DNA of 64,000 bases, from contig NZ_LVWJ02000014.1 of NCBI RefSeq assembly GCF_001625015.1, forward strand, positions 2,666,001 through 2,730,000. The letters are read 5' to 3'. This stretch comes from Lewinella sp. 4G2 (GTDB lineage: Bacteria > Bacteroidota > Bacteroidia > Chitinophagales > Saprospiraceae). Shown here piece after piece: positions 8,054 to 63,191 of this stretch. Below the pieces are notes generated by a model, which did no database searches, was not told the origin of the DNA, and worked only from the letters and a program-made list of their open reading frames with translations. Position numbers and translations under genes: made by a program. Numbering within the stretch: position 1 is the stretch's first letter; every line of letters starts with the position of its first letter.

Positions 8054-8070
8054 GCACCTGCGGCAGCGCC
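8054..8070 (+). repeat. 17-bp dispersed repeat copy (GCACCTGCGGCAGCGCC)
   Basis: Exact T-form copy on the plus strand, intergenic, 35 bases before the NlpC/P60 lipoprotein start and followed by C. Part of the family described in the findings. Confidence 0.9.
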
Positions 8071-8104
8071 CAAATCTATTGCTGTGCTGACTACCTTGGC
8101 GACT

Positions 8105-9265
8105 ATGCGAAATCTCCTGTACTTGCTACTAATGGTAGTTGCCACTGCCTGCGCAGAATATGTGAATACTGAACCAGCCACCCTGCCACCGGCTATCCTC
8201 CAACTGCAACAAGAATTTGCCCCGGATAAACGCACGGATCGAGTCGCCATTTCTCTTGAGAACGATACGCTCACCGGGTATACGACCAGGCGCGATGCGG
8301 CCGCTAACTTGCGAGAAGTTGCGGCCGAAAATGGCTATCACTACGCCGTAAGGACGCTGCCAGCTGAAGAACTAGCCGACACAACTTTTGGCGTGGTCCG
8401 AGTAGCCACCGCCAACCTCCGCAGCCAGCCAGGCCACAGCCAGGAACTGGCTACCCAGGCACTGTACGGTACGCCACTACAAGTGCTGGATAAACAGGAT
8501 GATTGGTACCTCGTCCGCACCCCCGATCGCTACCTCGCGTGGCTGGAAGAGGGGGCCTTCCGGCGAATGACCAAACCGAAATTCAAGGACTACCTTAATA
8601 CGCTAGACCTGATCTATACCGGAAAGTCAAGCGCCGCCGTAGACGCCGAAGGAAACACGCTGGCGGTAATTCGCCCGGGCGCCGTGCTGCCCAATCTCAA
8701 CCGCATTCAACAGCAGCAGTATTTTGTGGATATGAATGGTCAGAAGGCTACGTTAACCGCCGAACGAGTAGCCGGAAGAAGTCTTCCTTCGGCGGAAATG
8801 CCAAACGTCGAAGACCTCCTCAAAACCGCCACCACCTTCAACGGCCAGCCCTACCTCTGGGGAGGGACGAGCGAGAGCGGCTTGGACTGCAGCGGATTCA
8901 CCAAACTCACCTACCAATTGAATGGCTACGTCATACCGCGCGACGCCAGCCAACAGGTACACGCGGGAATCGCCGTGACGGAAGACGACGACGAGCTACA
9001 ACGCGGCGATCTGCTCTTCTTCGGGAAACTACGCGAGGACGGCAGCGAACGCATTACCCACGTCGGTTTCTACCTGGGCGACGGACGGTTTCTCCACGCC
9101 GGCGCGGACAACGGGCAAATCCAGGAAAACAGCCTGATTGAAGGCGCACCCAATTTTAGTAGGCACCGGCTTAATTCTCTGCTGCGCGCCAGGAGGTTGA
9201 CGCCAGGGTCGCCCGGTGTCGTTCCCCTACGCAAGGCTTTTGAAAATTTGTTAAACGAAGGGTAG
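8105..9265 (+). CDS. NlpC/P60 family cell-wall peptidase lipoprotein with SH3 domain
   Basis: A probable gamma-D-glutamyl-diamino-acid endopeptidase acting on peptidoglycan stems. The ATG at 8105 gives a lipoprotein signal with lipid-site Cys16 (LLYLLLMVVATAC); the upstream GTG at 8084 adds seven residues without purpose. SH3-like segments lie around residues 95-155. The NlpC/P60 domain spans about 235-350 with Cys262 (LDCSGF), His319 (ITHVGFYLG) and His331 (HAGAD), all expected catalytic residues. It follows a 17-bp repeat copy and is convergent with the 2TM gene. Confidence 0.9.
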   Translation: MRNLLYLLLMVVATACAEYVNTEPATLPPAILQLQQEFAPDKRTDRVAISLENDTLTGYTTRRDAAANLREVAAENGYHYAVRTLPAEELADTTFGVVRVATANLRSQPGHSQELATQALYGTPLQVLDKQDDWYLVRTPDRYLAWLEEGAFRRMTKPKFKDYLNTLDLIYTGKSSAAVDAEGNTLAVIRPGAVLPNLNRIQQQQYFVDMNGQKATLTAERVAGRSLPSAEMPNVEDLLKTATTFNGQPYLWGGTSESGLDCSGFTKLTYQLNGYVIPRDASQQVHAGIAVTEDDDELQRGDLLFFGKLREDGSERITHVGFYLGDGRFLHAGADNGQIQENSLIEGAPNFSRHRLNSLLRARRLTPGSPGVVPLRKAFENLLNEG

Positions 9266-9312
9266 GGCAGGTTTGGCCCGAAAGGATGCACGTGTCTTCG
9301 TGGGAGATTCCG

Positions 9313-9675
9313 CTAAACCAGATCCTCTTCGCTGTAGCCCCGACCAAGTGGTTCAGGGTTCCGTTGCGGGCGCCCAAATTTCCGATCGTCGTAATTATCT
9401 CTGAGGTCGGGTAGGGGCTCCAAATGATCTTCTTCGCGGGGGTGGGAATCTTCCGGGTCCGCTAGTGGCCCGTAGATGCTCAGGCCCTGCATGGCGACGC
9501 CAATGCCCCAGCCCAGTGCGGGCCAGATCCACCATCCGCCGCCGGTAAGAAAGGTGCTGATCACAAAAAACATGAAGACCATCACGAGGTAGGTCCTCAG
9601 ATGGCGGCGGAATTCCAGCTTCTTTTCTGGTAAGGTCTTGTCTTCAAACTTCTTGCGGTGGTCGCGGCGGGACAT
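9313..9675 (-). CDS. 2TM domain membrane protein
   Basis: A 120-residue protein with a basic N-terminus (MSRRDHRKKFEDK), a conserved helix (KLEFRRHLRTYLVM) and two closely spaced membrane segments around residues 27-45 and 48-70 separated by GGGWWIWP. The tail is acidic and Pro/Arg-rich. This matches the 2TM domain family found in Bacteroidota, sometimes fused to LytTR or histidine-kinase partners; stand-alone members have no known function. It lies 72 bases downstream of psd on the same strand. Confidence 0.75.
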   Translation of the reverse strand: MSRRDHRKKFEDKTLPEKKLEFRRHLRTYLVMVFMFFVISTFLTGGGWWIWPALGWGIGVAMQGLSIYGPLADPEDSHPREEDHLEPLPDLRDNYDDRKFGRPQRNPEPLGRGYSEEDLV

Positions 9676-10550: not shown

Positions 10551-10567
10551 GGCGCTGCCGCGGGTGC
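10551..10567 (-). repeat. 17-bp dispersed repeat copy (C form)
   Basis: The plus strand reads GGCGCTGCCGCGGGTGC, so the copy points to the minus strand. It is intergenic between psd and the antirepressor-like gene, flanked by T5 and a G-run. Confidence 0.88.
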
Positions 10568-18876: not shown

Positions 18877-18893
18877 GCACCCGCGGCAGCGCC
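18877..18893 (+). repeat. 17-bp dispersed repeat copy (GCACCCGCGGCAGCGCC)
   Basis: C-form copy on the plus strand in the intergenic region, followed by CC. Part of the dispersed family. Confidence 0.9.
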
Positions 18894-19557: not shown

Positions 19558-20574
19558 ATGAGTAAAAACAACACGATTCTTTCCGGTATCCAGCCCACGG
19601 GCAAGCTTCATTTTGGTCGCTATTTTGGAGCCGTTGAGAATTGGAAGCGCCTGCAGGAAGACTACGATTGCCTCTACATGGTCGTGAACTACCACGCCAT
19701 GACGATGCCCTTTACCGGTAAGAAATTGGCCGAGGAGAGCTGGAATCTTTGTTTCAACCTGATGGCCTGCGGCATCAAGCCGGAGAACATATTTATTCAG
19801 AGCCTCGTGCCCGAGCACACCGAACTGAACTGGATCCTGAACTGCTTCACGAGTTACGGGCAACTCACCCGCATGACCCAGTTCAAGGACAAGAGCTCGC
19901 GGAACGAGGAGCTAGGCGACCAGGGATTTATTTCCGGCGGGCTATTCACTTATCCCGTATTGCAAGCTGCGGATATTCTTATTTACAAGGCGGGGATCGT
20001 GCCGGTTGGAAAGGACCAGGAGCAGCACCTGGAGCTGAGCCGTAACATCGCCCAACGCTTCAATAATTTTGCTGGCAAGGAATTCTTCCCCATCCCCGAG
20101 GGGCTCTACACCAAGGTCAAAAAGGTCATGAGCACCGCGGACCCCAACCGCAAAATGAGCGCCAGCCTTGGCGACAAGCACAACATCGACGTGTTTGCCG
20201 ACGAGAAGCGCATTCGCAAGCAGATCGGTTCCGCCGTCACGGATAGTGGTACGGGCGCTGACGCGGGTGCGATGTCCGTAGGGGTAGCCAACCTGTTCAG
20301 CCTCCTCGAAGCCAGTGGCCGGGCGGATGCCCACGCTTCCCTCCTGCTCGACTACGAAGCGGGTAGCCTGAAGTACGCCGACCTCAAGCACGAGGTTGCC
20401 AACGGACTGGTAGCGATTTCCAGCGAGATCCGCGAAAACCTGGAGGAACTGAAGAAGGACCGCAAAGCCGTCAAGAACCAGATCAAGCAATCCTCGTTTG
20501 AGATCCGCAAGCGGGCCCAGGCCACGCTCAAGGAAGTGAAGGACATTTGTGGTTTGATGAACGTCCGTATGTAG
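19558..20574 (+). CDS. trpS: Tryptophan--tRNA ligase
   Basis: A class I synthetase charging tRNA-Trp; 338 residues, the normal size. The HIGH-equivalent is HFGR (18-21) in GIQPTGKLHFGRYFGA and the KMSKS-equivalent is KMSAS near residue 199. A TACCTTCG box, one mismatch from TAnnTTTG, ends 5 bases before the ATG, so the transcript may be nearly leaderless. In the C-terminal part a Gly-Ala-Asp-Ala-Gly-Ala stretch (20254-20270) coincides with a near-copy of the dispersed 17-bp repeat. Confidence 0.95.
   Translation: MSKNNTILSGIQPTGKLHFGRYFGAVENWKRLQEDYDCLYMVVNYHAMTMPFTGKKLAEESWNLCFNLMACGIKPENIFIQSLVPEHTELNWILNCFTSYGQLTRMTQFKDKSSRNEELGDQGFISGGLFTYPVLQAADILIYKAGIVPVGKDQEQHLELSRNIAQRFNNFAGKEFFPIPEGLYTKVKKVMSTADPNRKMSASLGDKHNIDVFADEKRIRKQIGSAVTDSGTGADAGAMSVGVANLFSLLEASGRADAHASLLLDYEAGSLKYADLKHEVANGLVAISSEIRENLEELKKDRKAVKNQIKQSSFEIRKRAQATLKEVKDICGLMNVRM
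20254..20270 (-). repeat. Near-copy of the 17-bp repeat inside trpS
   Basis: The plus strand reads GGCGCTGACGCGGGTGC, one mismatch (A for C at position 8) from the family consensus. It encodes GADAGA in a surface-type loop of TrpRS. It could be a diverged copy or a chance alanine/glycine run. Confidence 0.5.
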
Positions 20575-21764: not shown

Positions 21765-22592
21765 ATGAAATCCCTTTCCCCATTCTTATTTCTCTTCGGT
21801 TTTGTCCTCCTGCTTTCCGCCTGCGGTGGGAATGAAGAGGTGGCTACGGTCGATCCGGCCCCGGTTCAACCTACGGACTCGGCACCCGCGGCGGCGCCCG
21901 CATCCAAAGGAAGGATCGTTTGGGTAGACGGACTCAGCCTGCGCGAATCCCCCTCACTGACGGCCAAGCGCGTCGCCAAAATGAAGAACGGCGAAGTAGT
22001 AAAACTGACCGGACAGAAAAGTGACGAAAACGAAAATGCCGTCCTCCGCGGCGTACTTTACAGCGAACCCTGGTACGAACTGACAACCGAGGACGGCAAA
22101 CAGGGCTGGGCCCACGGCGGCGGCCTTAAAGGAAACCGCGAGGTAAAGGGCAACCGGCCGCTGACGGACACTAAATTCAACTTCCCCTACTTCGGAGAAT
22201 TTGACCTGAGCGGCTGGAAAAAGACCGGCCCCACGTCGACCTCGGCGGGTGACTTCGATTATACCACGACTACCTACGTCGGTGACGGGCAACGACTTAG
22301 CATCACTACCACGGGAACCGAGAGCGGGAGCGAGTACGGGTACAATTTTGACTACCTTCTGCAGAATTCCCGGGGTGACACCCTGAAAACCCGCTACTTC
22401 AGCTACAATAATGACATCCGCGAAATTGAAGAAGTGGTGGTGGATTACATGGGCGCCGAACCCACCCAACACCGCCGGACGCAGTCGGTATCGACGGCGT
22501 ACCAGCAACTGAAAGGCTACCCGCTGATGGCCCGTGGGGAATGGAAAAGCCAGCCCCTCAGCGAAGTCGGAAAGGAAGACTTTGAGATTTAA
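21765..22592 (+). CDS. SH3-domain lipoprotein
   Basis: 275 residues with a lipoprotein signal (FVLLLSACGG, Cys near 20) and a Pro/Ala linker. A bacterial SH3 domain follows at about 48-125 (GRIVWVDGLSLRESPS, then KNGEVVKLTGQ and GWAHGGGLKGN). The C-terminal half is beta-rich, with conserved LSGWKKTG, and unassigned. The linker contains a copy of the dispersed repeat, read as APAAAP. It may bind cell wall or sense the envelope; its role is not known. Confidence 0.72.
   Translation: MKSLSPFLFLFGFVLLLSACGGNEEVATVDPAPVQPTDSAPAAAPASKGRIVWVDGLSLRESPSLTAKRVAKMKNGEVVKLTGQKSDENENAVLRGVLYSEPWYELTTEDGKQGWAHGGGLKGNREVKGNRPLTDTKFNFPYFGEFDLSGWKKTGPTSTSAGDFDYTTTTYVGDGQRLSITTTGTESGSEYGYNFDYLLQNSRGDTLKTRYFSYNNDIREIEEVVVDYMGAEPTQHRRTQSVSTAYQQLKGYPLMARGEWKSQPLSEVGKEDFEI
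21882..21898 (+). repeat. 17-bp dispersed repeat copy in a lipoprotein linker
   Basis: GCACCCGCGGCGGCGCC, one base different from the C form (G for A). It codes for APAAAP in the linker after the lipobox of the SH3 lipoprotein. Confidence 0.75.
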
Positions 22593-24017: not shown

Positions 24018-25169
24018 TTAGAGCTTCGTCCACTTCTCGTTACCGCGGGAGTTTTCGACGACCTTTTCGACGAAGATCATTCCACGGAGGCCATCCTCGA
24101 TGGATGGGAAGTCTTTGCTCAGTTCGTCGGGCTCGGTGCCTTCGAGGCGGGCGCGGACGCAGGTGGCGAAGTTCTTGTAGATATTGGCGAAGGCTTCCAG
24201 GTAGCCTTCCGGGTGGCCGGCGGGTACGCGTTGGGCGGCCGTGGCGGCGTCGGAGAGGGAGCCCACACCGGTTCGGTAGTGAACGGTGGGCCCTTCCAGT
24301 GATTTTACCTGGAGGGTATTGGGCTCCTGCTGGTGCCATTCCAACCCGCCGGTCTCTCCCCAGATGCGGATGTTGAGGCCATTTTCTTCACCGACAGCAA
24401 TCTGGGAGCAGTGGAGAACGCCCTTTGCGCCACCTTCCAAGCGGAGGAGGATGTTGGCGTCGTCGTCCAAACGCCGACCTTCCACGAAGGAAGTGAGTTC
24501 GGCGCAGACCTCGGTGATCTTGAGGCCGGTGATGTATTCGGCCAGGTTTTCGGCGTGGGTACCGATGTCTCCCATGGCGCCGCCCATGCCAGATTTGGCG
24601 GGGTCCACGCGCCAGGAGGCTTGTTTTTGGTCGGTGTCCTCCACCTTCGTGGCGAGCCAACCCTGGGGGTATTCAACGACGACCTTACGGACCTTGCCGA
24701 TATCACCGTTCTCTACCATCACCCGGGCCTGTTTTACCATTGGGTAGCCCGTGTAGTTGTGGGTGAGGGCAAAGATGAGGCCGGTCTCTTCCACCAATTT
24801 CTTCAGGATCTGGGCCTCCTCCACGTTGAAGGTGACGGGCTTGTCGCAAACCACGTGGAAGCCGTTCTCAAGGGCCATCTTGGCGGGGCCGAAGTGGACG
24901 TGGTTGGGGGTGACGATGGAAACGAAATCCATCCGTTCGCCTTCAGGAAGTTCTTTTTCTTTCGTGATCATTTCCTCGTAGCTGCCGTACACACGGTCGG
25001 CTGGGAGGAAAAAATCTTCGCCGGAAAGCCGGCTCTTTTCGGGATTGGAGCTGAAGGCGCCACAGACTAATTCGATCTGCTGGTCAATGGCTGCAGCAAT
25101 GCGATGGACACCACCGATAAAGGCACCGCGGCCGCCTCCGACCATGCCCATTCTTATCTTACGAGACAT
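24018..25169 (-). CDS. Gfo/Idh/MocA family oxidoreductase
   Basis: 383 residues with an N-terminal Rossmann fold (RMGMVGGGRGAFIGGVHR) and the family motif around VVCDKPVTFN, where the Lys is catalytic. The C-terminal alpha/beta domain contains GGAMGDIGTHAENLAEY. It probably oxidises or reduces a sugar or inositol derivative with NAD(P). No export signal. It pairs with the ThuA gene downstream on the same strand, suggesting joint sugar catabolism; the substrate cannot be read from sequence. Confidence 0.9.
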   Translation of the reverse strand: MSRKIRMGMVGGGRGAFIGGVHRIAAAIDQQIELVCGAFSSNPEKSRLSGEDFFLPADRVYGSYEEMITKEKELPEGERMDFVSIVTPNHVHFGPAKMALENGFHVVCDKPVTFNVEEAQILKKLVEETGLIFALTHNYTGYPMVKQARVMVENGDIGKVRKVVVEYPQGWLATKVEDTDQKQASWRVDPAKSGMGGAMGDIGTHAENLAEYITGLKITEVCAELTSFVEGRRLDDDANILLRLEGGAKGVLHCSQIAVGEENGLNIRIWGETGGLEWHQQEPNTLQVKSLEGPTVHYRTGVGSLSDAATAAQRVPAGHPEGYLEAFANIYKNFATCVRARLEGTEPDELSKDFPSIEDGLRGMIFVEKVVENSRGNEKWTKL

Positions 25170-27596: not shown

Positions 27597-27621
27597 TACT
27601 AGGTGGCGCTGCCGCAGGTGC
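27597..27621 (-). repeat. Left arm of 25-bp inverted repeat containing a 17-bp repeat copy
   Basis: 27597-27621 is the exact reverse complement of 28798-28822. The 17-bp core is 27605-27621 (T form, minus-strand orientation), extended by TACTAGGT. It lies between the convergent ends of lolD and the FAD oxidase gene. Confidence 0.92.
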
Positions 27622-28797: not shown

Positions 28798-28822
28798 GCA
28801 CCTGCGGCAGCGCCACCTAGTA
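28798..28822 (+). repeat. Right arm of 25-bp inverted repeat containing a 17-bp repeat copy
   Basis: A perfect match to the left arm at 27597-27621. The core 28798-28814 is the T form on the plus strand, extended by ACCTAGTA. It lies upstream of the FAD oxidase gene and downstream of hemC. Confidence 0.92.
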
Positions 28823-31510: not shown

Positions 31511-31515
31511 AGATT

Positions 31516-31585
31516 AACGAAAACCTAGGGTCGTTCGGCCTGCGGCCTCCTTGACCCTAGGCTAACTTGCTTCTCCCTCCGGGAG
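31516..31585 (+). mobile_element. Left structured end of the REP-transposase element
   Basis: A 70-bp segment about 84% identical to the reverse complement of 32176-32247. It has three stems: CCTAGGGTC/GACCCTAGG (31524-31532, 31553-31561) enclosing GGCC-TGC-GGCC (31537-31547), then CTCCC-TCC-GGGAG (31573-31585). The differences from the right end are largely compensatory. Confidence 0.88.
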
Positions 31586-35278: not shown

Positions 35279-35295
35279 GCACCTGCGGCAGCGCC
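35279..35295 (+). repeat. 17-bp dispersed repeat copy after the NamZ-like gene
   Basis: GCACCTGCGGCAGCGCC, T form on the plus strand, starting 4 bases past the stop. With 34095-34111 it makes an inverted pair spanning the gene, though without further flank identity. Confidence 0.9.
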
Positions 35296-36962: not shown

Positions 36963-38297
36963 ATGGATTTTATCGAAGAACTCGAATGGCGCGGCATGCT
37001 GCACCAACTTACCCCCGGCATCCGTGAGCACCTCGCCGAAGCCCCACGCAAAGCCTACATCGGTTTCGACCCAACGGCCCCTTCGCTCACGATCGGTAAC
37101 TACGTGCAGATCATGATCCTGACGCTCTGGGCCCGCTCCGGCCACCACCCGGTCATCCTCTTCGGCGGGGCAACCGGCCGCATCGGCGACCCTTCCGGTA
37201 AGGACAAGGAGCGCCAACTCAAATCCTACGAAGAGCTCGACGCGAACCTGGAAAGCCAGAAAGCACAGATGCTGGAACTCATCGCCGCCGGTCTCCGGGG
37301 CGCTGCCGCAGGTGCCAAGGAAGTTGGGGAGGAACACGCCTTTAGCGTGGTGAACAACTACGAGTTCTACGAAAACATGAACGTGCTGGACTTCCTCCGC
37401 AACGTAGGAAAGACGCTTACGATCAGCTACATGATGACGAAGGACTCCGTCCAGAACCGCCTGGAATCTGGGATGTCCTTCACCGAATTCTCCTATCAAT
37501 TGCTGCAGGGCTACGACTTCCAGAAGTTGTACCAGGACCACGGCGTGACCGTCCAGATGGGCGGCTCCGACCAGTGGGGGAACATTACGGCGGGTACCGA
37601 ATTCGTCCGCCGCAACGCGGAAGGCAAAGCCTACGCCGTCACCACTCCCTTACTAACGAAGGCCGACGGCTCGAAATTCGGTAAGTCAGAAAAAGGCAAC
37701 CTCTGGTTGGATGCCGAACTCACCGGCCCCTACGATTTCTACCAATTCTGGGTCCGCTCCAACGATGCGGATATCCCTACCTACCTAAAGACCTTCTCCC
37801 TGCGTAGCAAAGAAGAGATCCTGGCCGACGTCGCCACCGTCGAAGCCCACGGGCCGGACAACAACCTCTTCCGCGAGGTAAACGCCATCAAGCACGCGCT
37901 GGCCACGGAGCTAACGGAACGCGTCCACGGAGCCGAAGGCGTCGCCACCGCCAAGCGGGTAACGGATATCTTCTACGGCCGCGGCACCACCCCGGAAGAC
38001 CTGGCCGGCCTCAACGCGAAAACCATCGAAGGGCTGCGCGGTGAGATCGCGGATTTTGTCGTCCCCGCCTCCGCCCTGGCGGCTTCCCCCAGCTTAATCG
38101 ACGTACTGGCTGACTTGACCTCCATTCTTTCCAGCAAATCGGAGGCACGGCGGGCCATCCAGGCGAATGCCATCGCCATCAACAAGGTAAAAGTCAGCGA
38201 CGTAGATGCCGAGCTCAATTCGGGAGATTTATTGCACGACCGCTTCATCCTGATTGAGAACGGGAAGAAGAAGCGGTACTTGCTCGTGGTCGAGTAG
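36963..38297 (+). CDS. tyrS: Tyrosine--tRNA ligase
   Basis: A class I synthetase of 444 residues. The HIGH-equivalent region is PSLTIGNYV (about 40-48), followed by FGGATGRIGDPSGK, the tyrosine pocket FSYQLLQGYDF, GGSDQWGNI and the KMSKS-equivalent KFGKS near residue 239. A C-terminal S4 domain runs from about 375. Between MLELIAAG and VNNYEF the loop is about ten residues longer than in E. coli TyrRS, and that loop holds a copy of the 17-bp dispersed repeat translated as GAAAGA. All catalytic motifs remain, so the enzyme should be active. Confidence 0.96.
   Translation: MDFIEELEWRGMLHQLTPGIREHLAEAPRKAYIGFDPTAPSLTIGNYVQIMILTLWARSGHHPVILFGGATGRIGDPSGKDKERQLKSYEELDANLESQKAQMLELIAAGLRGAAAGAKEVGEEHAFSVVNNYEFYENMNVLDFLRNVGKTLTISYMMTKDSVQNRLESGMSFTEFSYQLLQGYDFQKLYQDHGVTVQMGGSDQWGNITAGTEFVRRNAEGKAYAVTTPLLTKADGSKFGKSEKGNLWLDAELTGPYDFYQFWVRSNDADIPTYLKTFSLRSKEEILADVATVEAHGPDNNLFREVNAIKHALATELTERVHGAEGVATAKRVTDIFYGRGTTPEDLAGLNAKTIEGLRGEIADFVVPASALAASPSLIDVLADLTSILSSKSEARRAIQANAIAINKVKVSDVDAELNSGDLLHDRFILIENGKKKRYLLVVE
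37299..37315 (-). repeat. 17-bp dispersed repeat copy inside tyrS
   Basis: The plus strand is GGCGCTGCCGCAGGTGC, in frame as G-A-A-A-G-A in a loop that is longer than usual for TyrRS. Confidence 0.9.
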
Positions 38298-39961: not shown

Positions 39962-42754
39962 CTAATTCCCGATAACTACCTTCAAGCTTTCGGACCCCTG
40001 ACGTAGGAAATAGACGCCCGCCGGTAAATCAGCCACTTGAAGGCTAGCGCTACCTCCCTTAATGATTGTTTTGCTAATCAGACGCCCGTCACTTCCCAGT
40101 AGATAAACAGGTAAGCCATCCGCGGCTTTGATCGTCAACCGGTCGGTCGCGGGGTTCGGGAAGGCGGCAATGCCCTCAACTTTCCCGGAGAGCACAGCCG
40201 AAACCAGTGGGGAGTAACTGATGGATCCATCGAAGTCACGCTGGGCGATCCGGTAAGTGTAGTTCGTTCCCGGTACCAGCGCTTCGTCGACGAAGCCGTA
40301 CTCACCGGTGGTCTCAGTTGTCGGGGCTACGGTCCCAATGGCGGTGAACGGTTTACCATTATCCGTACGCTCGACCGTGAAGCCGACGTTGTCTGTTTCC
40401 TCCGTCGTTGTCCATTTTACCAGGATGTCGTCCTTCTTCGCCTCGGCCGAAACTTCACTCCAGATAACGGGTAAGGCAGCGGCGACGCAAGAGCTTACGG
40501 TGACTTCGTCCAAATACCAACCCAGGGTGCCGTTGCAACCGTCAAAAGTCATCGTCCACCGGAGGCGGAGGTCGTCGCCGGGGTTGGCGAAGTAGTCCAG
40601 GTCCACCACCGAAGTACCCCAGGTGCCGGTATTGCGCCCGCTATCCGAGCCGTGGAAGGCCTGGCGCCCAGCAAAAGGGTTGTCGTTACTTCCCGGCCCA
40701 ATCAGTGCGCCGTCGTAACCATTATAGATGAAGGCTTGGATGGGGACCAATTGGAAGGAACTGTTGTTGCGGGAATACTGTAGCACGCCGCCGTCATAGT
40801 TCCGCTCCGTAGCATAGTAGTGGTTGAAGCGAAGTTCCATCAGCGCAGCGTCCGCCGGTAGCTCAATGATGGGGCTGGTGATTGCGGTGGAGCCGTTCTC
40901 GAGGTCGTCAACGCAGTCGCCAATGGCGGGGTCGGCGGCGTAAACTCCGGTACCGGCGCGACCGTCGGGGAGGTTGTCCAGGATCACCCAGGGTTGGTCC
41001 GTCCACGTGGCGGGATTACTTGGGTTTTGGTTCAGCGTCCAGGGGCCGAGCCCATTTTCCCAGTCTTCGTTGAGGTGGATGCGTTCCTGGTTTTCCGGAT
41101 TGCTACCGCAACTGGCGGGAGGGTTCTGGGCGAGGGTAGGGGTGGAGGGGCAGGCGTTGGGCGTCAGCATCCCGGTAGCCGTGAGGGCGTTCTCCACTTC
41201 GGCCCGGTCAGCTGCGGTGAGGATCAGTCCGGAGGGCGCGGCGGGCAGATCAATCAACGTAAGGCTTGGCAGATCCGTACCGTAGAGGTCTTCGGTACTC
41301 TGCAGCAGCATATCCGCGAAGGCGCGAAAGTCGGTCACTCGGCCAAGGTAGTTTTCGTTGGCATGGAAGTAGATGTGCAGGGCCTTGGTCAGGCCGATTC
41401 CATTCACCGTCGTGCCATTCAAAGTGCCGCCATCCACCAATAGGGAGAAAGACCGGTTCACGACACCGCTGTTGATATGGACGCCACCATTGTCGATAAA
41501 GGGGTCACAGGAAAAGCTGCTGCTACTCCGGCTGCTCGGGTCGCCTTCACACTCGGGGTTGTACATGTCGCGGAGGGCACCGCCGAATACGGCCGCGTCT
41601 TCCCCCAGCCGCCAGCGTTGGCTGTTATTGTCGCAGCGGGTCCGCATCCGGTCATCGTTGAAGTCGTTGCCGCGGTCATTTAGGAGGTCAATGGCTTCAC
41701 CGAAGATGTCGGCAAGTCCCTCGTCGATCGCCCCAGTTTCGTACTGATAGATGGGATTGCCCATGGCACCGGTGTAGTTATGCGTCCACTCGTGGGCTAC
41801 GATGTCATCGGTCACTGTTCCGGGGCAGTGGCGGATCAGGTCGCCGCTCGCAGAAGCATTCGGGCAGGCGTCCTGGCGGTCGGTGAGGGTGCGCATCACG
41901 CCGTCCGCGTCGTCGTAACTATTGCGGCCGAAGGTGCGGTGGTAGAGGTGGTAGACTTCGCCGGTGGCGGTCAGCATTTCCTGGCCTTCAGCATTGAGGT
42001 TGCCGGGAAAGGCCTGGCCCTCTTCCCAGATTAAATTAGTCGGGTCGGTGGTCGTTGAGTACAATTGCCGGTCCAGGTCGCAGTGCAGTTGGTGGTCGAA
42101 AATGGGTTTGCCCGTGAGCACGTCAACGTACACCATCGTGCCACGGAAACCTCCGGGCTCGGTAAATTCGATGGCCTGCGTCCGGTGCCTTTTTTCTGTC
42201 TTTGACCAAGGGTTGGCGGAGATCCAAACCACGTCTTTGGGTTCAACCTGCCAATCAGCGATGGTGGGGTACTGCGTGGTTAAGTGTGCTCGTCCAGCAT
42301 CAATTAATGCAGCTTCGGAGAATACGGGCGCTGCCGCGGGTGCAGAGAAAAGGGCAAGTGAGGAAAAGGCGTCCGCCGGTGCGAGGTACCCGCTGATTGT
42401 TCTGGGGAATCCCCGACCGTCCAGCCGCAGGCTCACCTCCCCGCCAATGACATCCGCATTGTTGAGGCGCTGTCCGAAACGGATGTACCGGGCCCCATCC
42501 ACGGCGCGCGTTCCCGTTCCCGGTACAAACTTTGTACCTGCGGCAGCGCCCAAAATGGTGACGTGCGTACGCAGAAACTCAGCGGGGGGGACCGCAATGG
42601 CGGCTAATTCTAAAGTAAAGTAACGCTCCGTATTCACCTTGACGGTGTAGCCACGAGCCTGTAGCTCAGCCACACTTTCGGGCGTCAGGGCGGACGTTTG
42701 AGCCACGGCTGCGAAGCTCAGCAGCAGGCAGAGCGCGGAAAGGCCTAATTTCAT
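39962..42754 (-). CDS. Secreted M4 (thermolysin-like) metalloprotease with T9SS sorting domain
   Basis: About 930 residues from the ATG at 42754, which opens a signal peptide (LGLSALCLLLSFAAVAQ). A propeptide region (about 20-210) precedes the peptidase domain with HEWTH zinc motif and the downstream Glu in GAIDEGLADIFGE; VHINSGVVNRSF carries the C-terminal catalytic His. A jelly-roll-type region, a fibronectin-like domain (ILVKWTTTEETDNVGFTVER) and a T9SS sorting tail (IAAFPNPATDRLTI) follow. It is an extracellular protease. The propeptide holds two copies of the 17-bp repeat, read as APAAAP and GAAAGT. Confidence 0.9.
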   Translation of the reverse strand: MKLGLSALCLLLSFAAVAQTSALTPESVAELQARGYTVKVNTERYFTLELAAIAVPPAEFLRTHVTILGAAAGTKFVPGTGTRAVDGARYIRFGQRLNNADVIGGEVSLRLDGRGFPRTISGYLAPADAFSSLALFSAPAAAPVFSEAALIDAGRAHLTTQYPTIADWQVEPKDVVWISANPWSKTEKRHRTQAIEFTEPGGFRGTMVYVDVLTGKPIFDHQLHCDLDRQLYSTTTDPTNLIWEEGQAFPGNLNAEGQEMLTATGEVYHLYHRTFGRNSYDDADGVMRTLTDRQDACPNASASGDLIRHCPGTVTDDIVAHEWTHNYTGAMGNPIYQYETGAIDEGLADIFGEAIDLLNDRGNDFNDDRMRTRCDNNSQRWRLGEDAAVFGGALRDMYNPECEGDPSSRSSSSFSCDPFIDNGGVHINSGVVNRSFSLLVDGGTLNGTTVNGIGLTKALHIYFHANENYLGRVTDFRAFADMLLQSTEDLYGTDLPSLTLIDLPAAPSGLILTAADRAEVENALTATGMLTPNACPSTPTLAQNPPASCGSNPENQERIHLNEDWENGLGPWTLNQNPSNPATWTDQPWVILDNLPDGRAGTGVYAADPAIGDCVDDLENGSTAITSPIIELPADAALMELRFNHYYATERNYDGGVLQYSRNNSSFQLVPIQAFIYNGYDGALIGPGSNDNPFAGRQAFHGSDSGRNTGTWGTSVVDLDYFANPGDDLRLRWTMTFDGCNGTLGWYLDEVTVSSCVAAALPVIWSEVSAEAKKDDILVKWTTTEETDNVGFTVERTDNGKPFTAIGTVAPTTETTGEYGFVDEALVPGTNYTYRIAQRDFDGSISYSPLVSAVLSGKVEGIAAFPNPATDRLTIKAADGLPVYLLGSDGRLISKTIIKGGSASLQVADLPAGVYFLRQGSESLKVVIGN
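42327..42343 (-). repeat. 17-bp dispersed repeat copy in the M4 protease propeptide (first)
   Basis: The minus strand is GCACCCGCGGCAGCGCC, coding APAAAP within the propeptide (FSAPAAAPVF). C form. Confidence 0.9.
42534..42550 (+). repeat. 17-bp dispersed repeat copy in the M4 protease propeptide (second)
   Basis: GTACCTGCGGCAGCGCC, one base from the T form. The gene is on the minus strand, so it is translated as GAAAGT (ILGAAAGTKF). It is opposite in orientation to the copy 191 bases away. Confidence 0.85.
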
Positions 42755-49558: not shown

Positions 49559-52447
49559 CTACTTCACTTCGAAGGAATGCTCGACCACGTTGCTGCCGGC
49601 CGCCACCGTCAGGGTATAATTGCCTTTGCGGAGGTAGAAATTACCGTCCTTAGCAGCTTCCACTTTAGCGGCGGGGCGGCTGCTGTCTTCCTGTATATTG
49701 GTCAAGGCAACGCTGACCATTTCGGCAAAACGCCCATCGAAGGTCTGGTCGTAGGTGAACTGGTTGATGCCCGGCATCAATTTCAGATCCCGCTGGTAGA
49801 GGGTTGTTCCGTCGTCGCTCTTGATCCTTAACTCCGCACCCGCGGCAGCGCCCGGATTATAAACGGCGAACTTCATTTCTGGCTTACGGGTCTGAAGGTC
49901 AAAATCCAGGGTGCCGTAGCGGCTGGAGTAACGGACAACCTCGGGAGCATCAATGGCCATGGCACCGGATTCCCGCGCGGCGGCCTGCAGGAGTTTGACG
50001 TTGGCCTTGTAAAGTGACCGCCCGTGGGTGCCGACGATCAGGTCGCCGCTGGGCTCGTGAATGACAAGATCGTGGACCGCCACGGCCGGCAAGCCATTGT
50101 TTACGGTATTGAACTTCTTACCGCCATCGATACTCACGTAGAGGGCGTGGTCGGAACCGACGAAGAGTAGGTTGGGGGAGGAATAGTCTTCCAGGATCAC
50201 GTTAGCGGGCTCCGTGGGTAGGAACTGACCGATTCGGTCCCAGCTGGCCCCTTGGTCGGTACTCCTGTAAACGTGGCTCGTGAAATCATCATTTCGGTAA
50301 CCATTGAGGGTGAGGTAGACGGTGGAAGCATCGTGCTTGCCCGCGGCGATTCGGCTGACCCACAGATTCCGCGGCAGCCCGTTGTTGATGTTCGTCCAGG
50401 TCTCGCCACCATCATCGCTGCGGTGGATCAAGCCATCGTCGCTACCAACGTAAAGCAGCCCTTTGGTGATGGGACTTTCGGAGATGGAGGTAAGTGTCGC
50501 GTAGGCAACGTCGCCCGGCTTGCCACCCTGCGTCAGATCCTCACTCGTAATGGCCCAGTTGGCACCCCGGTCGCTGCTGCGGTGGAAGCGGTTGGACCCC
50601 ATGTAGACTACGTCGGGATCGTGGGGGCTGAGCAGGATCGGGCTCTGCCAGTTCCAGCGGTAGGGGCGCTCACCGAGCTTGTGTTTCGGGGTGATGTAGG
50701 TGGAGGTGTCAGCGGCCATGTCCATCCGGTAGTAGTTGCCGTACTGGTAGCCGAGGTAGGCGGTATTGTTATCCCGGGGGTCAACCTCCACCTGCATTCC
50801 GTCACCGCCGAAGAGCATTTTGTAGGGATACTCACCGCGTTGCATCCAGCCGGGGCTGGCGGAGTAATTATTGGGCCCGCGCCAGGTACCGTTGTCCTGC
50901 AAACCACCGTAAACGCGGTAGCCATCGGGGTGGTCATCGACCGCAATGGAGTAAAATTGGCCGAGGGGCGGGTTATTGGCCTTGCGCCAATTTTTGCCGC
51001 CGTCGTAGCTGATGTTGATGCCGCCGTCGTTGCCGTTAATCAGGTGGTCGGGGCGCTCAGGATTGATCCACAATGCGTGGTGATCGGCGTGAACGTTGTC
51101 GCCGTTGATGCCGGCCCAGGTCGCACCACCGTCGGTTGATTTGATGATCGGTACGCCGAGCGCGTAGACCGTCATCGGGTCGTCCGGCAGGGTGCGAATG
51201 ACGCCGAAATAGTACCCATAGCTGTTGTAAAGCCCGTCAATGAACTCAGCGTGGGTACGCTCCCACTTCTCGCCGTTGGTCTTGGATACGTACAGTTCAA
51301 AGCCTTTCACTGGCGTGTCGAAGAGCAGGGAGTTGGCGTCTTCGAGGTATTCCACGAGGTCGAGGGGGGAGATCGCTTCGTCGGTTGTATCCGCCAAAAG
51401 CGTCGCCGCGTCGAGATCGGCGGGGAAGCCGTTGCCCTTCAGGAAATCGTCAAGCTGGTAGGTCTGGAGGCGGCGGAAGTCGGCCTGCGGCATGCTCCGC
51501 AGTAGATCTTTGGTAAGGGTTTTATCGAGCGTATCCCGGGGTTCCGCGTCGCGGCGGAAGTAGTTGTCGATGCTTGCGTAAAGGTAGCGATCACCGTTCG
51601 TATCGTAGCTGATGCTCAAGCCAATACGCCCCGCGCCTTCACCGAGTGGAAAACCACCCGAGCGATTACTGATCTGCGACCAGTTTGTGCCGCCGTCGGT
51701 GCTGTGGTAAACGCCACTGCCCTTGCCGGACTCCTTGAAATTCCAGGCTTTGCGGCTGCGTTCCCAGCTGGCGGCGTACAATTCCTGGGGGTTGCGTGGG
51801 TCGCGGATGAGGTCCACTACACCGGTGCTGTCGTTAACGAATAGCGTCTTCGTCCAGGTGCCACCGCCGTTGGTGGTCTTAAACACACCGCGTTCTGGGT
51901 TATCGCTGTAGAGGTGGCCCATGGCGGCGACCCAGACGGTGCTGACGTCGCGCTGGTCCACGATCACCCGGCCGATGTGGTGGGATTCGGGGAGGCCTAC
52001 GTGCGTCCAACTATTCCCGCCGTCGGTGCTTCGGTACACGCCATTGCCGGCGTAGGAGGAGCGGCTGGAGTTCACTTCGCCGGTGCCCACGTAGATCGTT
52101 TTGGTGATCCAGTGCACGTCGATGGCGCCGATCGTCATTACGGGCAGGTCGTCAAAAAGAGGCTCAAAAGTGATGCCGTCATCCTTCGTCTCCCAGAGGC
52201 CACCGCTGGCGTAGGCAACGTAGAAATGCCGGGGGTCGGCGGGGTCCACGGCGACGTCCGTCACCCGCCCGCTCATGATACTCGGGCCGATGTTTTCAAA
52301 TTTCAGTCCCGCCGCCGGGCTGTTCTGCTGCAGGAAAAGGCGTTGTTGGTAACCCTGGTCCCGCACCGCCGCCACCGTAGGGCTCTGGGCGCTGACGCAG
52401 GTGCAGTGCAATAGGACGAGGAGCAGTGAAAAAAAGAAAGTACGCAT
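49559..52447 (-). CDS. Large exported BNR/sortilin-type beta-propeller protein
   Basis: 962 residues from the ATG at 52447, which begins a signal peptide (FFFSLLLVLLHCTCVSAQ); a longer frame to 52588 has no merit. Repeated BNR/Asp-box motifs (YRSTDGGNSWTH, KTTNGGGTWTK, YHSTDGGTNWSQ, HRSSDRGANW, YRSTDQGASWD) form two beta-propellers, as in VPS10/sortilin-like glycosidase-type proteins of Bacteroidota. The C-terminal 150 residues are beta-rich without a clear T9SS tail. Substrate and role are unknown. Two 17-bp repeat sequences lie in it: a true copy at 49836 (read GAAAGA) and a near-copy at 52388. Confidence 0.85.
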   Translation of the reverse strand: MRTFFFSLLLVLLHCTCVSAQSPTVAAVRDQGYQQRLFLQQNSPAAGLKFENIGPSIMSGRVTDVAVDPADPRHFYVAYASGGLWETKDDGITFEPLFDDLPVMTIGAIDVHWITKTIYVGTGEVNSSRSSYAGNGVYRSTDGGNSWTHVGLPESHHIGRVIVDQRDVSTVWVAAMGHLYSDNPERGVFKTTNGGGTWTKTLFVNDSTGVVDLIRDPRNPQELYAASWERSRKAWNFKESGKGSGVYHSTDGGTNWSQISNRSGGFPLGEGAGRIGLSISYDTNGDRYLYASIDNYFRRDAEPRDTLDKTLTKDLLRSMPQADFRRLQTYQLDDFLKGNGFPADLDAATLLADTTDEAISPLDLVEYLEDANSLLFDTPVKGFELYVSKTNGEKWERTHAEFIDGLYNSYGYYFGVIRTLPDDPMTVYALGVPIIKSTDGGATWAGINGDNVHADHHALWINPERPDHLINGNDGGINISYDGGKNWRKANNPPLGQFYSIAVDDHPDGYRVYGGLQDNGTWRGPNNYSASPGWMQRGEYPYKMLFGGDGMQVEVDPRDNNTAYLGYQYGNYYRMDMAADTSTYITPKHKLGERPYRWNWQSPILLSPHDPDVVYMGSNRFHRSSDRGANWAITSEDLTQGGKPGDVAYATLTSISESPITKGLLYVGSDDGLIHRSDDGGETWTNINNGLPRNLWVSRIAAGKHDASTVYLTLNGYRNDDFTSHVYRSTDQGASWDRIGQFLPTEPANVILEDYSSPNLLFVGSDHALYVSIDGGKKFNTVNNGLPAVAVHDLVIHEPSGDLIVGTHGRSLYKANVKLLQAAARESGAMAIDAPEVVRYSSRYGTLDFDLQTRKPEMKFAVYNPGAAAGAELRIKSDDGTTLYQRDLKLMPGINQFTYDQTFDGRFAEMVSVALTNIQEDSSRPAAKVEAAKDGNFYLRKGNYTLTVAAGSNVVEHSFEVK
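49836..49852 (+). repeat. 17-bp dispersed repeat copy inside the BNR gene
   Basis: GCACCCGCGGCAGCGCC, C form. The gene is on the other strand and translates it as GAAAGA (NPGAAAGAEL), in a turn near the C-terminus. Confidence 0.9.
52388..52404 (-). repeat. Near-copy of the 17-bp repeat
   Basis: The plus strand is GGCGCTGACGCAGGTGC, one mismatch from the T form, at the signal-peptide cleavage region of the BNR protein. It shares the A variant with the trpS near-copy. Confidence 0.5.
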
Positions 52448-54773: not shown

Positions 54774-54790
54774 GCACCTGCGGCAGCGCC
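54774..54790 (+). repeat. 17-bp dispersed repeat copy (T form)
   Basis: GCACCTGCGGCAGCGCC, intergenic, about 26 bases after the epimerase stop and followed by CGC. Confidence 0.9.
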
Positions 54791-54929: not shown

Positions 54930-55976
54930 ATGCCTCAACCTCCAATTCGCGCGGGCCGCGGTGCGCAGATCAATACCGCTAATCCGTACCACAATCTGCG
55001 TTACGATGAGTTGCCGGACCCGGAGGATGAGCTGCGTACCCAGCTGATCCCGACCCACCCCAAGACGATCTTGAATAAGATCACCAGCCCGGATCTGGGG
55101 AATGGCTACGGGCTGAATTGCTACCAGGGTTGTGAGCACGGCTGTGTCTACTGTTTTGCGCGGACGACTCACCAGTACTGGGGCTACTCTGCGGGGATCG
55201 ACTTCGAGCAGAAGATCCTTTATAAGGCCGAGGCACCGGCATTACTGCGTTCGACCCTGTTGAAGAAGAATTATCAGCCTATGCCGGTAATGATGTCCGG
55301 CAACACGGATAGCTACCAGCCTGCGGAGAAGAAGTTGCGGCTTACGCGGCAGTGCCTCGAAGTCCTAAGCGAATTGCAACATCCCTTCGGACTGATCACG
55401 AAAAACTCGTTGATTTTGCGCGATCTCGATCTGATCGCCGCAGCCGCGCAGGATGACCTGGTACACGTAGCGCTGAGCATCACTACCCTCAATGAAGACG
55501 TGCGTCGCATGCTGGAACCCCGCACGTCCAGCATCGCCCAACGCTTCCGCGCGGTAGAAGAACTGAGCAAGGCCGGCGTGCCGGTCACTGTCAATATCGC
55601 GCCCATCATTCCCGGCCTCACCGAACACGAAGTCCTCGGCATCGCCAAACGTGCCGCTGACGCAGGTGCCCGGCGGATTGGGTACGCGATCGTCCGCCTC
55701 AACGATGAGATCGGCACCATTTTTACGGACTGGGCCCACAAGATGATTCCCGACCGGGCGGAAAAGGTGCTGAGCAAGATCCGGGAGTGCCGTGGCGGGA
55801 ATTTGGAAGAACGGCGCTTCGGTTTCCGCCACCGCGGGGAAGGCGAAGTAGCCCGGATGATCGGCCAGCACTACCAATTGGCGAAGCGGAAGTACTTCCC
55901 CGGAGAGCCGGATTGGCCGGCCTATAACTTTGATCTGTTTGAGGCGCGGCGGCGGCCGCAATTGTCGCTGTTTTAG
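54930..55976 (+). CDS. PA0069-type radical SAM protein
   Basis: 348 residues with the CxxxCxxC cluster motif in CYQGCEHGCVYCFAR, followed by radical SAM core segments (MPVMMSGNTDSYQPAEKKLRLTR, LITKNS, HVALSITTLNEDVRRMLEPR). A family C-terminus runs from GGNLEERRFGFRHRG. The group is related to spore photoproduct lyase-like and PA0069-like proteins whose reaction is not established; a DNA-repair role has been suggested. The start at 54930 gives a typical family N-terminus (RAGRGAQINTANPYH). Confidence 0.88.
   Translation: MPQPPIRAGRGAQINTANPYHNLRYDELPDPEDELRTQLIPTHPKTILNKITSPDLGNGYGLNCYQGCEHGCVYCFARTTHQYWGYSAGIDFEQKILYKAEAPALLRSTLLKKNYQPMPVMMSGNTDSYQPAEKKLRLTRQCLEVLSELQHPFGLITKNSLILRDLDLIAAAAQDDLVHVALSITTLNEDVRRMLEPRTSSIAQRFRAVEELSKAGVPVTVNIAPIIPGLTEHEVLGIAKRAADAGARRIGYAIVRLNDEIGTIFTDWAHKMIPDRAEKVLSKIRECRGGNLEERRFGFRHRGEGEVARMIGQHYQLAKRKYFPGEPDWPAYNFDLFEARRRPQLSLF
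55653..55669 (-). repeat. Weak near-copy of the 17-bp repeat
   Basis: The plus strand is GCCGCTGACGCAGGTGC with two mismatches. It codes AADAGAR in the radical SAM protein. It may be coincidence. Confidence 0.3.
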
Positions 55977-61162: not shown

Positions 61163-61231
61163 CTACCAAATTTAACTTTTAACAAGCATTAGACGTAGGA
61201 ACATACATTTCCAGGCCCGCGTTGCTTGAGT

Positions 61232-61849
61232 ATGTTTGAGTTCCTGCGTCCTGATATCCAAAATATGGTTCAGGTACTGATTACCGTACCAATTTTATAC
61301 ACCGTCGTTGTTGCCGCTATCCGTTTCACGGGTAACCGGTCGACATCTTCGATGAATAATTTTGACTGGATAATCACGGTAGCTATCGGTAGTGTTTTTG
61401 CTTCCACCGTAGTTTTGAACCGGACGAATTTTCTGGAGGGCGCATTTGCAATTGTCCTGCTCCTACTCTTGCAGTACCTGATTACGCTGGCAATTCAACG
61501 GTCTAAGGCCGTCAAAAAAGTGCTAAAAGCATCCCCGCAACTATTACTTTTCGAAGGAGAATTTTTGAACGACGTTATGCGGGAGCAACGCATCGTTCGG
61601 GGCGAAGTCTACGCAGCCGTACGTGACAAAGGCTATAAAAGTGTTAAGTCAATCTACGCCGTCGTCCTAGAGACCAATGCTAAGATGAGCATCATTCCCA
61701 TGTCTAAAGGTGATGACTACGAAGGTTTTTCTTTGTCTGACGTAGACGGATTACCCGAGGGGCTGAGGGAGGACCTTGAGCAGCGAGGTGAGGAAGATGA
61801 TATGTCGTCCAAAGAAGAGGAAGAAAAAAGGACGCAATTTGCAGATTAG
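61232..61849 (+). CDS. DUF421 (YetF-like) membrane protein
   Basis: 205 residues: three membrane segments (about 10-30, 42-62, 65-85) followed by the DUF421 cytoplasmic domain (LLFEGEFLNDVMREQRIVRGEVYAAVRDKGYKS), with an acidic tail (SSKEEEEKRTQ). The start is taken at the ATG 61232 (MFEFLRPDI); the TTG at 61226 adds two residues. Its function is unknown; some homologues are membrane proteins induced during sporulation or stress. Confidence 0.82.
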   Translation: MFEFLRPDIQNMVQVLITVPILYTVVVAAIRFTGNRSTSSMNNFDWIITVAIGSVFASTVVLNRTNFLEGAFAIVLLLLLQYLITLAIQRSKAVKKVLKASPQLLLFEGEFLNDVMREQRIVRGEVYAAVRDKGYKSVKSIYAVVLETNAKMSIIPMSKGDDYEGFSLSDVDGLPEGLREDLEQRGEEDDMSSKEEEEKRTQFAD

Positions 61850-61916
61850 TCTTGGTGGACGCTAGTGTTTTTCGCATCTTGCTAACGCATTAGTAGCCAC
61901 CAATCAATCCTCCCCT

Positions 61917-63191
61917 TTGCGCATTTTACACACCGCCGACTGGCACCTCGGCCACCGGCTGTACAACCACGACCGGACGCCCGAGCACGCCGCCGCTCTT
62001 CAGTGGTTGGAAGGCCTCATCGAACGGGAAGCAATCGACGTCGTGATTGTTGCGGGAGATGTCTTCGACGTCTCCAACCCTTCCAACCAAGCCCGCCAAC
62101 TTTATTACCAGTTTCTTTCGCGCCTGCTCGCTACCGACGTAGCCGCGGCCATCGTCGTTGGCGGAAACCACGACTCTCCCAGTATGCTGGATGCTCCCCG
62201 CGAAGTATTGCAGGAGCTCAATCTTCACGTGGTCGGTGCGGCGCGGTCGCAGGTGCAAAGTCAGGTGGTAACCATCAGGACCAACCGCGAGGGTGAGGAG
62301 GAAGAGCTCATCGTGGCCGCCGTCCCCTTCCTCCGGGAACGCGACGTCCGGTCCGCCAAATTCGGGGAATCCCCCGACGAGCGGATGACCGGCATCAAAC
62401 AGGGAATTCAGGACCACTTTACGGAAATTGGGGCTGCCGCCGTCGCCACCCGTTCAGCCAATACGGTACCCATCCTGGCTACCGGCCACCTGTTCGTCGG
62501 GGGGGCGACGGATTCCGAAGACAAGAAAAGCCACATCTATCAGGCCGATGAGAACAACATCGACGCGGGTAATTTTCCGAACTGTTTTGACTACGTCGCC
62601 CTAGGCCACGTCCACCGTGCTCAGAGCGTGAACGGGCAGGATAACATCCGGTACTGCGGCAGCCTCGTCCCCCTCACTTTCGTGGAGGGAATGAGCGACC
62701 GTAGCGTCCGCATCGTTGATATAGGGAAGGCCGGCGAGCCGGTGTCCAGCCGCAAGATCCCCGTCCCCACCGCCAGAAAGTTGTACCGGCTCCACGGTAC
62801 GCTCGACGTTGTGAAGGCCAAACTGCGCGCTGCGGTAGCGGAACACCTCAATCGGGAGGGAGAGGATATCCTGACACCCTGGGCGGAGGTTCGCGTCCTG
62901 ACCGATGACCGGATCCACGACCTCCCCGAGCAGTTAGCGGCTACCGTTCTGGAGGTAGCCGCTCCGGAACCCGTACGGGAACCGATCAAGTTTTTACGCC
63001 GGTCCCAGGAACGTCTTTCCCCCGCACCCGCGGCAGCGCCCCAACAAACCAAGCAATTGGACGAGCTTTCACCGGTGGACGTATTCCAACTCCTCTGCGC
63101 CGCCGAAGAACTCAGCGAAGAAGTGGCGACGGAGGTCCTTACGGACTTCCGTGACCTCATCAACTGGAAACAGGACCAAGACAACGATTAA
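61917..63191 (+). CDS. sbcD: Exonuclease SbcCD subunit D
   Basis: 424 residues, a Mre11-type nuclease: ADWHLGH, VAGDVFD, VGGNHDSP, GHLFVGG and LGHVHRAQ carry the metal ligands. It starts with TTG at 61917; there is no ATG alternative before the first motif. With SbcC, whose ATG follows 3 bases after this stop, it cleaves hairpins and protein-blocked DNA ends. Near the C-terminus (63024-63040) the dispersed repeat is read as APAAAP between the capping domain and the last helix. Confidence 0.95.
   Translation: MRILHTADWHLGHRLYNHDRTPEHAAALQWLEGLIEREAIDVVIVAGDVFDVSNPSNQARQLYYQFLSRLLATDVAAAIVVGGNHDSPSMLDAPREVLQELNLHVVGAARSQVQSQVVTIRTNREGEEEELIVAAVPFLRERDVRSAKFGESPDERMTGIKQGIQDHFTEIGAAAVATRSANTVPILATGHLFVGGATDSEDKKSHIYQADENNIDAGNFPNCFDYVALGHVHRAQSVNGQDNIRYCGSLVPLTFVEGMSDRSVRIVDIGKAGEPVSSRKIPVPTARKLYRLHGTLDVVKAKLRAAVAEHLNREGEDILTPWAEVRVLTDDRIHDLPEQLAATVLEVAAPEPVREPIKFLRRSQERLSPAPAAAPQQTKQLDELSPVDVFQLLCAAEELSEEVATEVLTDFRDLINWKQDQDND
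62240..62256 (-). repeat. Weak near-copy of the 17-bp repeat in sbcD
   Basis: The plus strand is GGCGCGGTCGCAGGTGC with two mismatches, coding AARSQVQ. It is possibly a decayed copy or chance. Confidence 0.25.
63024..63040 (+). repeat. 17-bp dispersed repeat copy inside sbcD
   Basis: GCACCCGCGGCAGCGCC, C form, translated APAAAP in a linker near the C-terminus. Confidence 0.9.

Follow-up and report, generated by a model that had tools for sequence, protein, structure and literature searches.

A 17-bp word is scattered over both strands of a 64-kb stretch of the Lewinella sp. 4G2 genome (the window, corresponding to C14:2666001-2730000 of this genome, G000), where it had been pointed out in an earlier note on the same DNA. 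Analysis of the whole genome and of related genomes confirmed that the observation is real and bigger than first described. The word is part of a longer motif with different spellings in related species, and its copies avoid each other within about 3 kb on the same strand, whereas copies on opposite strands do not. With a probability of roughly 55%, we interpret the word as the central part of a self-DNA transfer signal of ~30 bp, which would work like the uptake sequences of Neisseria and Haemophilus and would act on each single strand separately.

A search with the exact word revealed 614 copies in the 5.21 Mb (21 contigs) of G000, 309 in forward and 305 in reverse orientation, versus 0 copies of a reversed control word. 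Within the window, 22 matches with up to three mismatches were found, compared with a mean of 0.69 in dinucleotide shuffles; Rfam and tRNA scans of the window gave no matches. An iterated weight matrix, built on 464 kb of G000 DNA, identified the 17-mer as the core of a ~30-bp motif with ~35 bits of information and detected 111 sites in these 464 kb, versus 0-1 in fourth-order Markov sequence. The density in the sampled DNA is about 240 sites per Mb, or one per ~4 kb. The motif begins with a pyrimidine-rich stretch from -10 to -1 (CC at -10/-9, TT at -6/-5, C at -3 and YY at -2/-1), followed by GCACCYGCGGCAGCGCC and then mostly by C; position 6 of the core is C or T, and position 10 tolerates T or A. 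The generalised form GCACCYGCGN{2,5}GCGCC was present in 1022 copies in G000 versus 8 for its control. The earlier judgement that the word occurs beyond chance is borne out by these counts, and the ordinary genome-wide frequency that had been named as its possible refutation is ruled out.

The spacing of the sites was analysed in seven species, represented by G000 (464 kb), G019, G006, G002, G020, G015 and G011; the test excluded G001, G004 and G017, which have few sites, and G007 with 12 sites (alternation in 6/11). Pooled over the seven species, 32 same-strand pairs closer than 3 kb were observed versus 131.7 expected, whereas opposite-strand pairs amounted to 145 versus 138 (divergent 82 versus 69.0, convergent 63 versus 69.3). 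The pooled same-strand ratio was lowest up to 2.5 kb (0.09-0.23), rose to 0.60 at 2.5-3 kb and to 0.65-0.83 at 3-4 kb, and was ~1 beyond. Observed and expected same-strand pairs below 3 kb were 5/35.9 for G000, 12/42.0 for G019, 11/26.3 for G006, 1/10.5 for G002, 0/5.4 for G020, 1/3.8 for G015 and 2/7.8 for G011. None of 2000 simulations with uniform positions gave values as low for G000, G019, G006 and G002, while P was 0.001 for G020 and 0.0055 for G011. With positions fixed and orientations permuted, P values of 0 (G000 and G019), 0.0135 (G006), 0.0005 (G002), 0.039 (G020) and 0.0375 (G011) were obtained.

The same pattern is seen between direct neighbours. Only 30 of 105 neighbouring sites in G000 have the same orientation, and at lags 2-4 this share is near half; neighbours less than 3 kb apart alternate in 43/46 cases, and those more than 4 kb apart show no clear preference. 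Position lists of the + strand contained 0 versus 7.1 gaps below 3 kb in G000 C11, 1 versus 7.5 in G000 C14 and 1 versus 8.4 in G019 C1; parts of two of these lists, the initial 400 kb for C14 and the initial 120 kb for G019, coincide with stretches already used. If strand is ignored, all sites together are spaced just a little more evenly than at random, which is what independence of the two strands would predict. The difference between same-strand and opposite-strand spacing also agrees with the earlier statement that the word has a direction. As a control, 647 7-mers with similar counts in the same DNA, motif pieces excluded, were analysed, and none was as low as the motif (minimum ratio 0.70 versus 0.14); they replaced a first control set of 8-mers, which had yielded just four words, three of them motif pieces.

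Three rules were compared in a toy model of site gain and loss, where any site made redundant by another one within 3 kb decays. For same-strand, divergent and convergent pairs below 2.5 kb, the ratios were 0.25/0.21/0.16 when redundancy is independent of strand, 0.16/0.99/1.06 when it is limited to the same strand and 0.27/1.56/0.13 with directional reach. Among these three modelled rules, the strand-specific one fits best.

The motif is found in related genomes mostly in other spellings. The exact word was absent from 39 sampled genomes outside the genus and occurred in 0 to 52 copies each in 20 genus mates. In a wider scan of genome contigs at least 119 stretches hold the exact word (own-genome records may be left out here); among the matches listed, 80 stretches from many different phyla have a single copy each, and one record is of Neolewinella agarilytica. 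Counts of GCACCYGCGNCNGCGCC were 946 in G000, 718 in G002, 30 in G017 and 3 in G021, while the remainder of the 120 family genomes had 0-1 each. Of the 21 genus genomes, on the other hand, 17 had 146 to 1295 copies of the generalised form, with control counts of at most 8 (for instance 1295/0 in G006, 1191/3 in G002 and 1120/1 in G014), and the other four had 39, 29, 5 and 3. In three further genera of the family, sampled with 31-134 kb per genus, no comparable word was conspicuous.

These dialects were sampled in G000, G006, G019, G002, G001, G011 and G017, the other genus genomes being mostly counted only. The middle of the core is GCAG in G000, mostly GCCG in G006 and mostly ACCG, TCCG or GCCG in G019. 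G017 has mostly CCGCC in place of the GCGCC of G000, and G004 perhaps likewise (five sites). The spacer within the core varies in length in G002 (GCACCTGCG-N4..6-CGC). Clearly other words are used by G011 (YTGCTACTTTG...AG, with GCTACTTTG in 31 copies in 102 kb) and G001 (TACCTGCG-CTCCG[CT]-CGCC). The variable spacer of G002 and the TTTG and CAAA halves in G011 had suggested a mini-hairpin with a variable loop; this was rejected, as DNA folding of six species sets was no better than for shuffled sequences (mean z about 0, best pair probability 0.17-0.32). The core is thus described as bipartite, and nothing more is claimed.

Other repeats were noticed in the sampled loci. Heptamer-based repeats have a species-specific unit, ACTATAGACTACAG in G000 (loci L031-L050), GAACTAT in G006 (L051-L057), GCAACCT in G002 (L058-L064) and TACCGCC in G019 (L065-L070). 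Several word sites in the G006 loci come directly after a G-rich word like ccccttcgggggtcggggggga, resembling two dispersed repeats fused together. The palindrome CCCGATAGCTATCGGG is recurrent in the G019 loci, its 17-mer being present in 6 copies in 120 kb.

To follow individual sites between species, G000 and G019 were compared over 93 kb in 47 aligned blocks with a mean identity of 71%. Shared positions inside the blocks comprised six sites by a strict pattern and G000 160877 by a looser one; three more shared sites (~C14 83590 as well as window positions 34095 and 35279) lie in syntenic gaps, where the match is one of place and not of aligned bases. At position 12 of these ten shared sites G000 always has A, while G019 has C in six, A in three and T in one. 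Two sites shared with G006, C14 142788 (aligned) and 142462 (at the matching place), both show A -> C. The site at window position 37299 lies in a loop for which 17 orthologues were compared: eight of them (G002, G005, G006, G008, G012, G014, G015 and G020) carry GCACC[CT]GCG-N4-CGCC, G018 is one base off, G019 lacks the word, and the G000 spelling is found in none. A word similar to CCCGATAGCTATCGGG occupies this loop in G013 (L089), where other species hold the motif.

True one-species sites in aligned blocks showed no gap in the core in 14 of 16 cases, and 8 of the 16 had a net length difference of at most one base over ~100 columns, although many of these stretches are poorly aligned (identity 0.34-0.58). 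Two pairs, G000 123903/G019 13721 and G000 112880/G019 230659, may be shared sites split by the aligner. From the original 18 unmatched rows, G000 120205 (no motif) and G000 160877 (counterpart under the looser pattern) were dropped. The strict pattern omitted weak sites with A or G at position 6, including three (G000 69456, G000 174065 and G019 C4 248061) that have gaps in or near the core. Five one-species sites lie in well-aligned DNA (identity at least 0.6); four of them are gap-free without length difference, and at the fifth, 37299, the wordless G019 is longer by 12 bases. Because no inserted word is seen at one-species sites in well-aligned DNA, substitution fits better than transposition as the origin of these sites. 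In one intergenic region G006 and G019 share a close inverted pair and G000 is ~135-165 bp shorter; a loss in G000 seems likelier than a gain, since both sister genomes hold the pair.

Within the window, all 14 positions given in the earlier note were correct, 12 of them exact and two (21882 and 42534) with one mismatch, but its list was incomplete, as three one-mismatch copies (5244, 20254 and 52388) and two two-mismatch copies (55653 and 62240), all on the - strand, had been missed. The sites are as follows.

5244..5260, - strand: one-mismatch copy in an alpha-amylase-like gene, new compared with the earlier note
8054..8070, + strand: exact core word
10551..10567, - strand: exact core word
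18877..18893, + strand: exact core word
20254..20270, - strand: one-mismatch copy in a class I tRNA synthetase gene, likewise new
21882..21898, + strand: one-mismatch copy in an SH3-domain gene
24150..24166, - strand: three-mismatch site, the lowest-scoring one kept by the weight matrix, which may be due to chance
27605..27621, - strand: exact core word between two convergent predicted genes
28798..28814, + strand: exact core word
34095..34111, - strand: exact core word near the start of a NamZ-like gene, with another spelling at the matching place in the sister genome G019
35279..35295, + strand: exact core word just past the stop of the NamZ-like gene, with another spelling at the G019 counterpart
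37299..37315, - strand: exact core word in the variable loop of a putative tyrosyl-tRNA synthetase gene (36963-38297, named by eye)
42327..42343, - strand: exact core word in an M4 peptidase gene
42534..42550, + strand: one-mismatch copy in the M4 peptidase gene
49836..49852, + strand: exact core word within a Sortilin/BNR-repeat gene
52388..52404, - strand: one-mismatch copy in the same Sortilin/BNR gene, also new
54774..54790, + strand: exact core word between predicted genes
55653..55669, - strand: two-mismatch copy in a radical SAM gene
62240..62256, - strand: two-mismatch copy in an SbcD-like gene
63024..63040, + strand: exact core word within the same SbcD-like gene

Using genes predicted with a simple dicodon caller, 59 of the 106 sites that differ from the word by at most two bases were located in genes, where they use five of the six frames; the unused sixth frame would encode R-C-R-R/G-C. 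The word lies on the coding strand in 29 and on the other strand in 30 of these genic sites. Among 70 exact sites, 39 were intergenic, 30 genic and one partial in DNA that is 85-89% coding, an intergenic excess in line with a placement in permissive positions. The 45 sites classed as intergenic are distributed over co-directional gaps (28), divergent gaps (12) and convergent gaps (5), roughly as gap lengths predict, and 18 of the co-directional ones point along the genes and 10 against them. Promoter and terminator roles are unlikely for the word, because site orientation and gap type show no clear tie to genes. The use of five frames and the location of about half of the sites between genes uphold the earlier view that selection or copying acts on the DNA and not on a peptide; conserved protein linkers, which had been named as a possible refutation, do not fit this distribution. 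The longest motif-free gap in a 400-kb stretch measures 21 kb (G000:C14:91608-112879) and largely corresponds to one 19.1-kb open frame.

A transfer signal with a single-strand unit of ~3 kb is the natural reading of this spacing, given that only one strand passes ComEC during transformation (PMC7811141) and that the spacing of Neisseria uptake words matches the length of conversion fragments (PMC2397512). During natural transformation, a strand with the word would preferentially be brought into the cell or be passed to recombination, and word-bearing versions of a region would therefore spread, a form of molecular drive. If the same strand carried another copy within the usual transferred length of ~3 kb, that copy would add nothing and decay, and a copy on the opposite strand would belong to a separate single-stranded unit and hence not be redundant. 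Three traits of the DNA uptake sequences (DUS) of Neisseriaceae and the uptake signal sequences (USS) of Pasteurellaceae are present: a single word in strong excess over the genome, oriented both ways, dialects among related species, and sites in permissive positions. Of the cytoplasmic components of transformation, ComEC was detected in 21/21 genus genomes, DprA in 20/21, the lone miss being a 55%-complete genome, and HHH_3 proteins in 20/21. One copy of the word (G000:C11:263021-263037) is located ~38 bases ahead of an HHH_3 (ComEA-like) match in a 452-amino-acid frame (region to 263434). A member of the same phylum, Riemerella columbina, has been reported to be competent and to prefer its own DNA (PMC7965970). 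Of the possibilities raised in the earlier note, an uptake-type signal fits best. In its fuller form the proposal is more tentative, and we would put it somewhat short of even odds: the word may be a self-DNA signal read on single strands, in which every strand is marked by a separate ruler of tags, with a refractory length of ~3 kb, as the footprint of strand-by-strand transfer, in a phylum for which no established uptake sequence was found and in genomes that yielded no credible type IV pilus ATPase.

Several results weigh against the transfer signal. A type IV pilus ATPase was not credibly found: PF00437 (T2SSE/PilT) gave only partial matches of at most 24.9 bits in 20/21 genomes, pilins and secretin not being included in the search. 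The curated cut-off is just reached in 11/21 genomes, mostly in frames of ~950 amino acids. The pilus route of DUS and USS is thus not supported, and we do not class the word as a member of these systems because no credible ATPase was found. No protein that reads the word was found either. That only same-strand neighbours are depleted speaks against a word that, like DUS and USS, works regardless of strand. The searches for ComEC, DprA and HHH_3 also match control genomes such as E. coli and therefore prove little. For Riemerella, short k-mers were examined and no DUS is established in the available part of that report (PMC7965970). Searches of the open-licence literature turned up no paper on such a word, or on transformation, in Lewinella or Saprospiraceae, and none on a Bacteroidetes uptake sequence as far as titles and the beginnings of abstracts indicate. 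Among the seven species, G015 alone was non-significant (P 0.084 with uniform positions, 0.509 with permuted orientations). Alternation was non-significant in three of four G019 pieces (C4 40/68, P 0.091; C1 11/23; C3 7/16) and in one of two G006 pieces (G006_b, 14/25) taken alone. The toy model was run with one parameter set, and selection for another per-strand function could give the same spacing.

Such a function, kept by ordinary selection and needed about once every few kb on each strand, could for example be that of a site for single-strand initiation or for re-priming, or of a Chi-like recombination signal read on the strand; we regard this alternative as unlikely, though likelier than the other ones. 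It would make a nearby second same-strand copy dispensable in the same way, both strands are served equally, and the density resembles that of Chi, which is likewise a frequent oriented word (81 copies in 300 kb of E. coli K-12). Chi differs in being an 8-bp sequence, and in this stretch it is strand-biased, with 57/81 copies on one strand compared with 309/305 for the word, and shows no same-strand exclusion (51 pairs versus 37.2 expected). Moreover, a ~35-bit motif with a species-specific spelling at hundreds of sites would be hard to explain by selection acting site by site. The earlier note had also listed Chi-like and segregation motifs, and both fit badly with the missing strand bias, with a ~30-bp motif that differs among sister species and, for Chi, with the lack of a spacing rule. 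A binding site for a nucleoid or segregation protein of the KOPS (FtsK-orienting polar sequence), matS, Noc or SlmA type would agree with sites dispersed over coding and intergenic DNA without a clear tie to transcription. We nevertheless hold it to be improbable, considering the balanced strands (45+/50- also in a 400-kb stretch of one contig), the species dialects and the fact that double-strand binding offers no obvious cause for an exclusion confined to one strand.

A spread by transposition is about equally improbable. REP (repetitive extragenic palindromic) or REPIN-like repeats moved by a Y1 (RAYT) transposase share with the word a high copy number, species-specific forms and, in G006 and G002, close divergent pairs, and Y1_Tnp genes are present in 20/21 genomes. 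One of them, a solo IS200-like Y1 transposase gene, lies inside the window (31683-32162), with imperfect tandem repeats (31254-31540, unit ~110-115 bp by eye) just upstream of it. Sites on both sides of the Y1 match were found at 6 of 34 loci (L076, L291, L293, L299, L304 and L307), the upstream one always on the - strand and a downstream one on the + strand, at varying distances. Site density is not raised at Y1 loci, however, with 32 sites in all 34 loci of mostly ~3.3 kb and none in 12 of them, and even the nearest sites are ~80-250 bp away from the Y1 match (L293, L299 and L301). G018 has 777 motif copies without a Y1 match and G008 has 619 with one weak match. Unlike REP and REPIN sequences, the word shows no insertion signature in well-aligned DNA and no stable hairpin, and 43-59% of its sites, depending on the count, are genic. 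A very small mobile element, as suggested in the earlier note, fits badly with the dialect changes in place, with the missing insertion signature in well-aligned DNA and with the site density near Y1 genes. Least probable in our view is a start site for directional transfer or packaging of the gene-transfer-agent or headful type with a reach of ~3 kb; same-direction exclusion and the fact that divergent pairs are mildly more frequent than convergent ones (82 versus 63) would suit it, but the directional toy model cuts convergent pairs to 0.13 of expectation, and the observed number is close to expectation.

The proposed transfer signal resembles the known uptake words in part. Like neisserial DUS, it has very many copies and dialects among related species (PMC3630211), and DUS spacing is also tied to conversion-fragment length (PMC2397512). 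DUS are words of 10-12 nt read by the type IV minor pilin ComP (PMC12061091), a single copy of which suffices and close inverted pairs of which act as terminators (PMC2397512), whereas the motif described here has ~30 bp, a spacer of variable length in G002 and strand-autonomous spacing, and no pilus ATPase was credibly found in its genomes. The combination of core and flank over ~30 bp is shared with the USS of Pasteurellaceae, which have a full length of 31 bp, an average spacing of ~1 kb and AT-tracts (PMC7811141). The flank here is an upstream pyrimidine tract instead of AT-tracts; USS are taken up by a type IV pilus, and strand-specific exclusion is unreported for them in the available part of that source (PMC7811141).

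Dispersed uptake words have been described for Pasteurellaceae and Neisseriaceae (PMC7811141), and their nature, as selfish drive elements or as sequences useful to the cell, has been debated (PMC2397512). A third, unrelated case with dialects would provide an independent test of that debate. Strand-autonomous spacing represents a new type of evidence, which from sequence alone suggests a process that acts on single strands over ~3 kb. If the interpretation is true, the usual length of a transferred strand could be estimated directly from the genome, as the refractory length. Should the word bias the entry of DNA, it would point to an undescribed outer-membrane DNA route in Bacteroidota and would offer a tag for transforming these bacteria.

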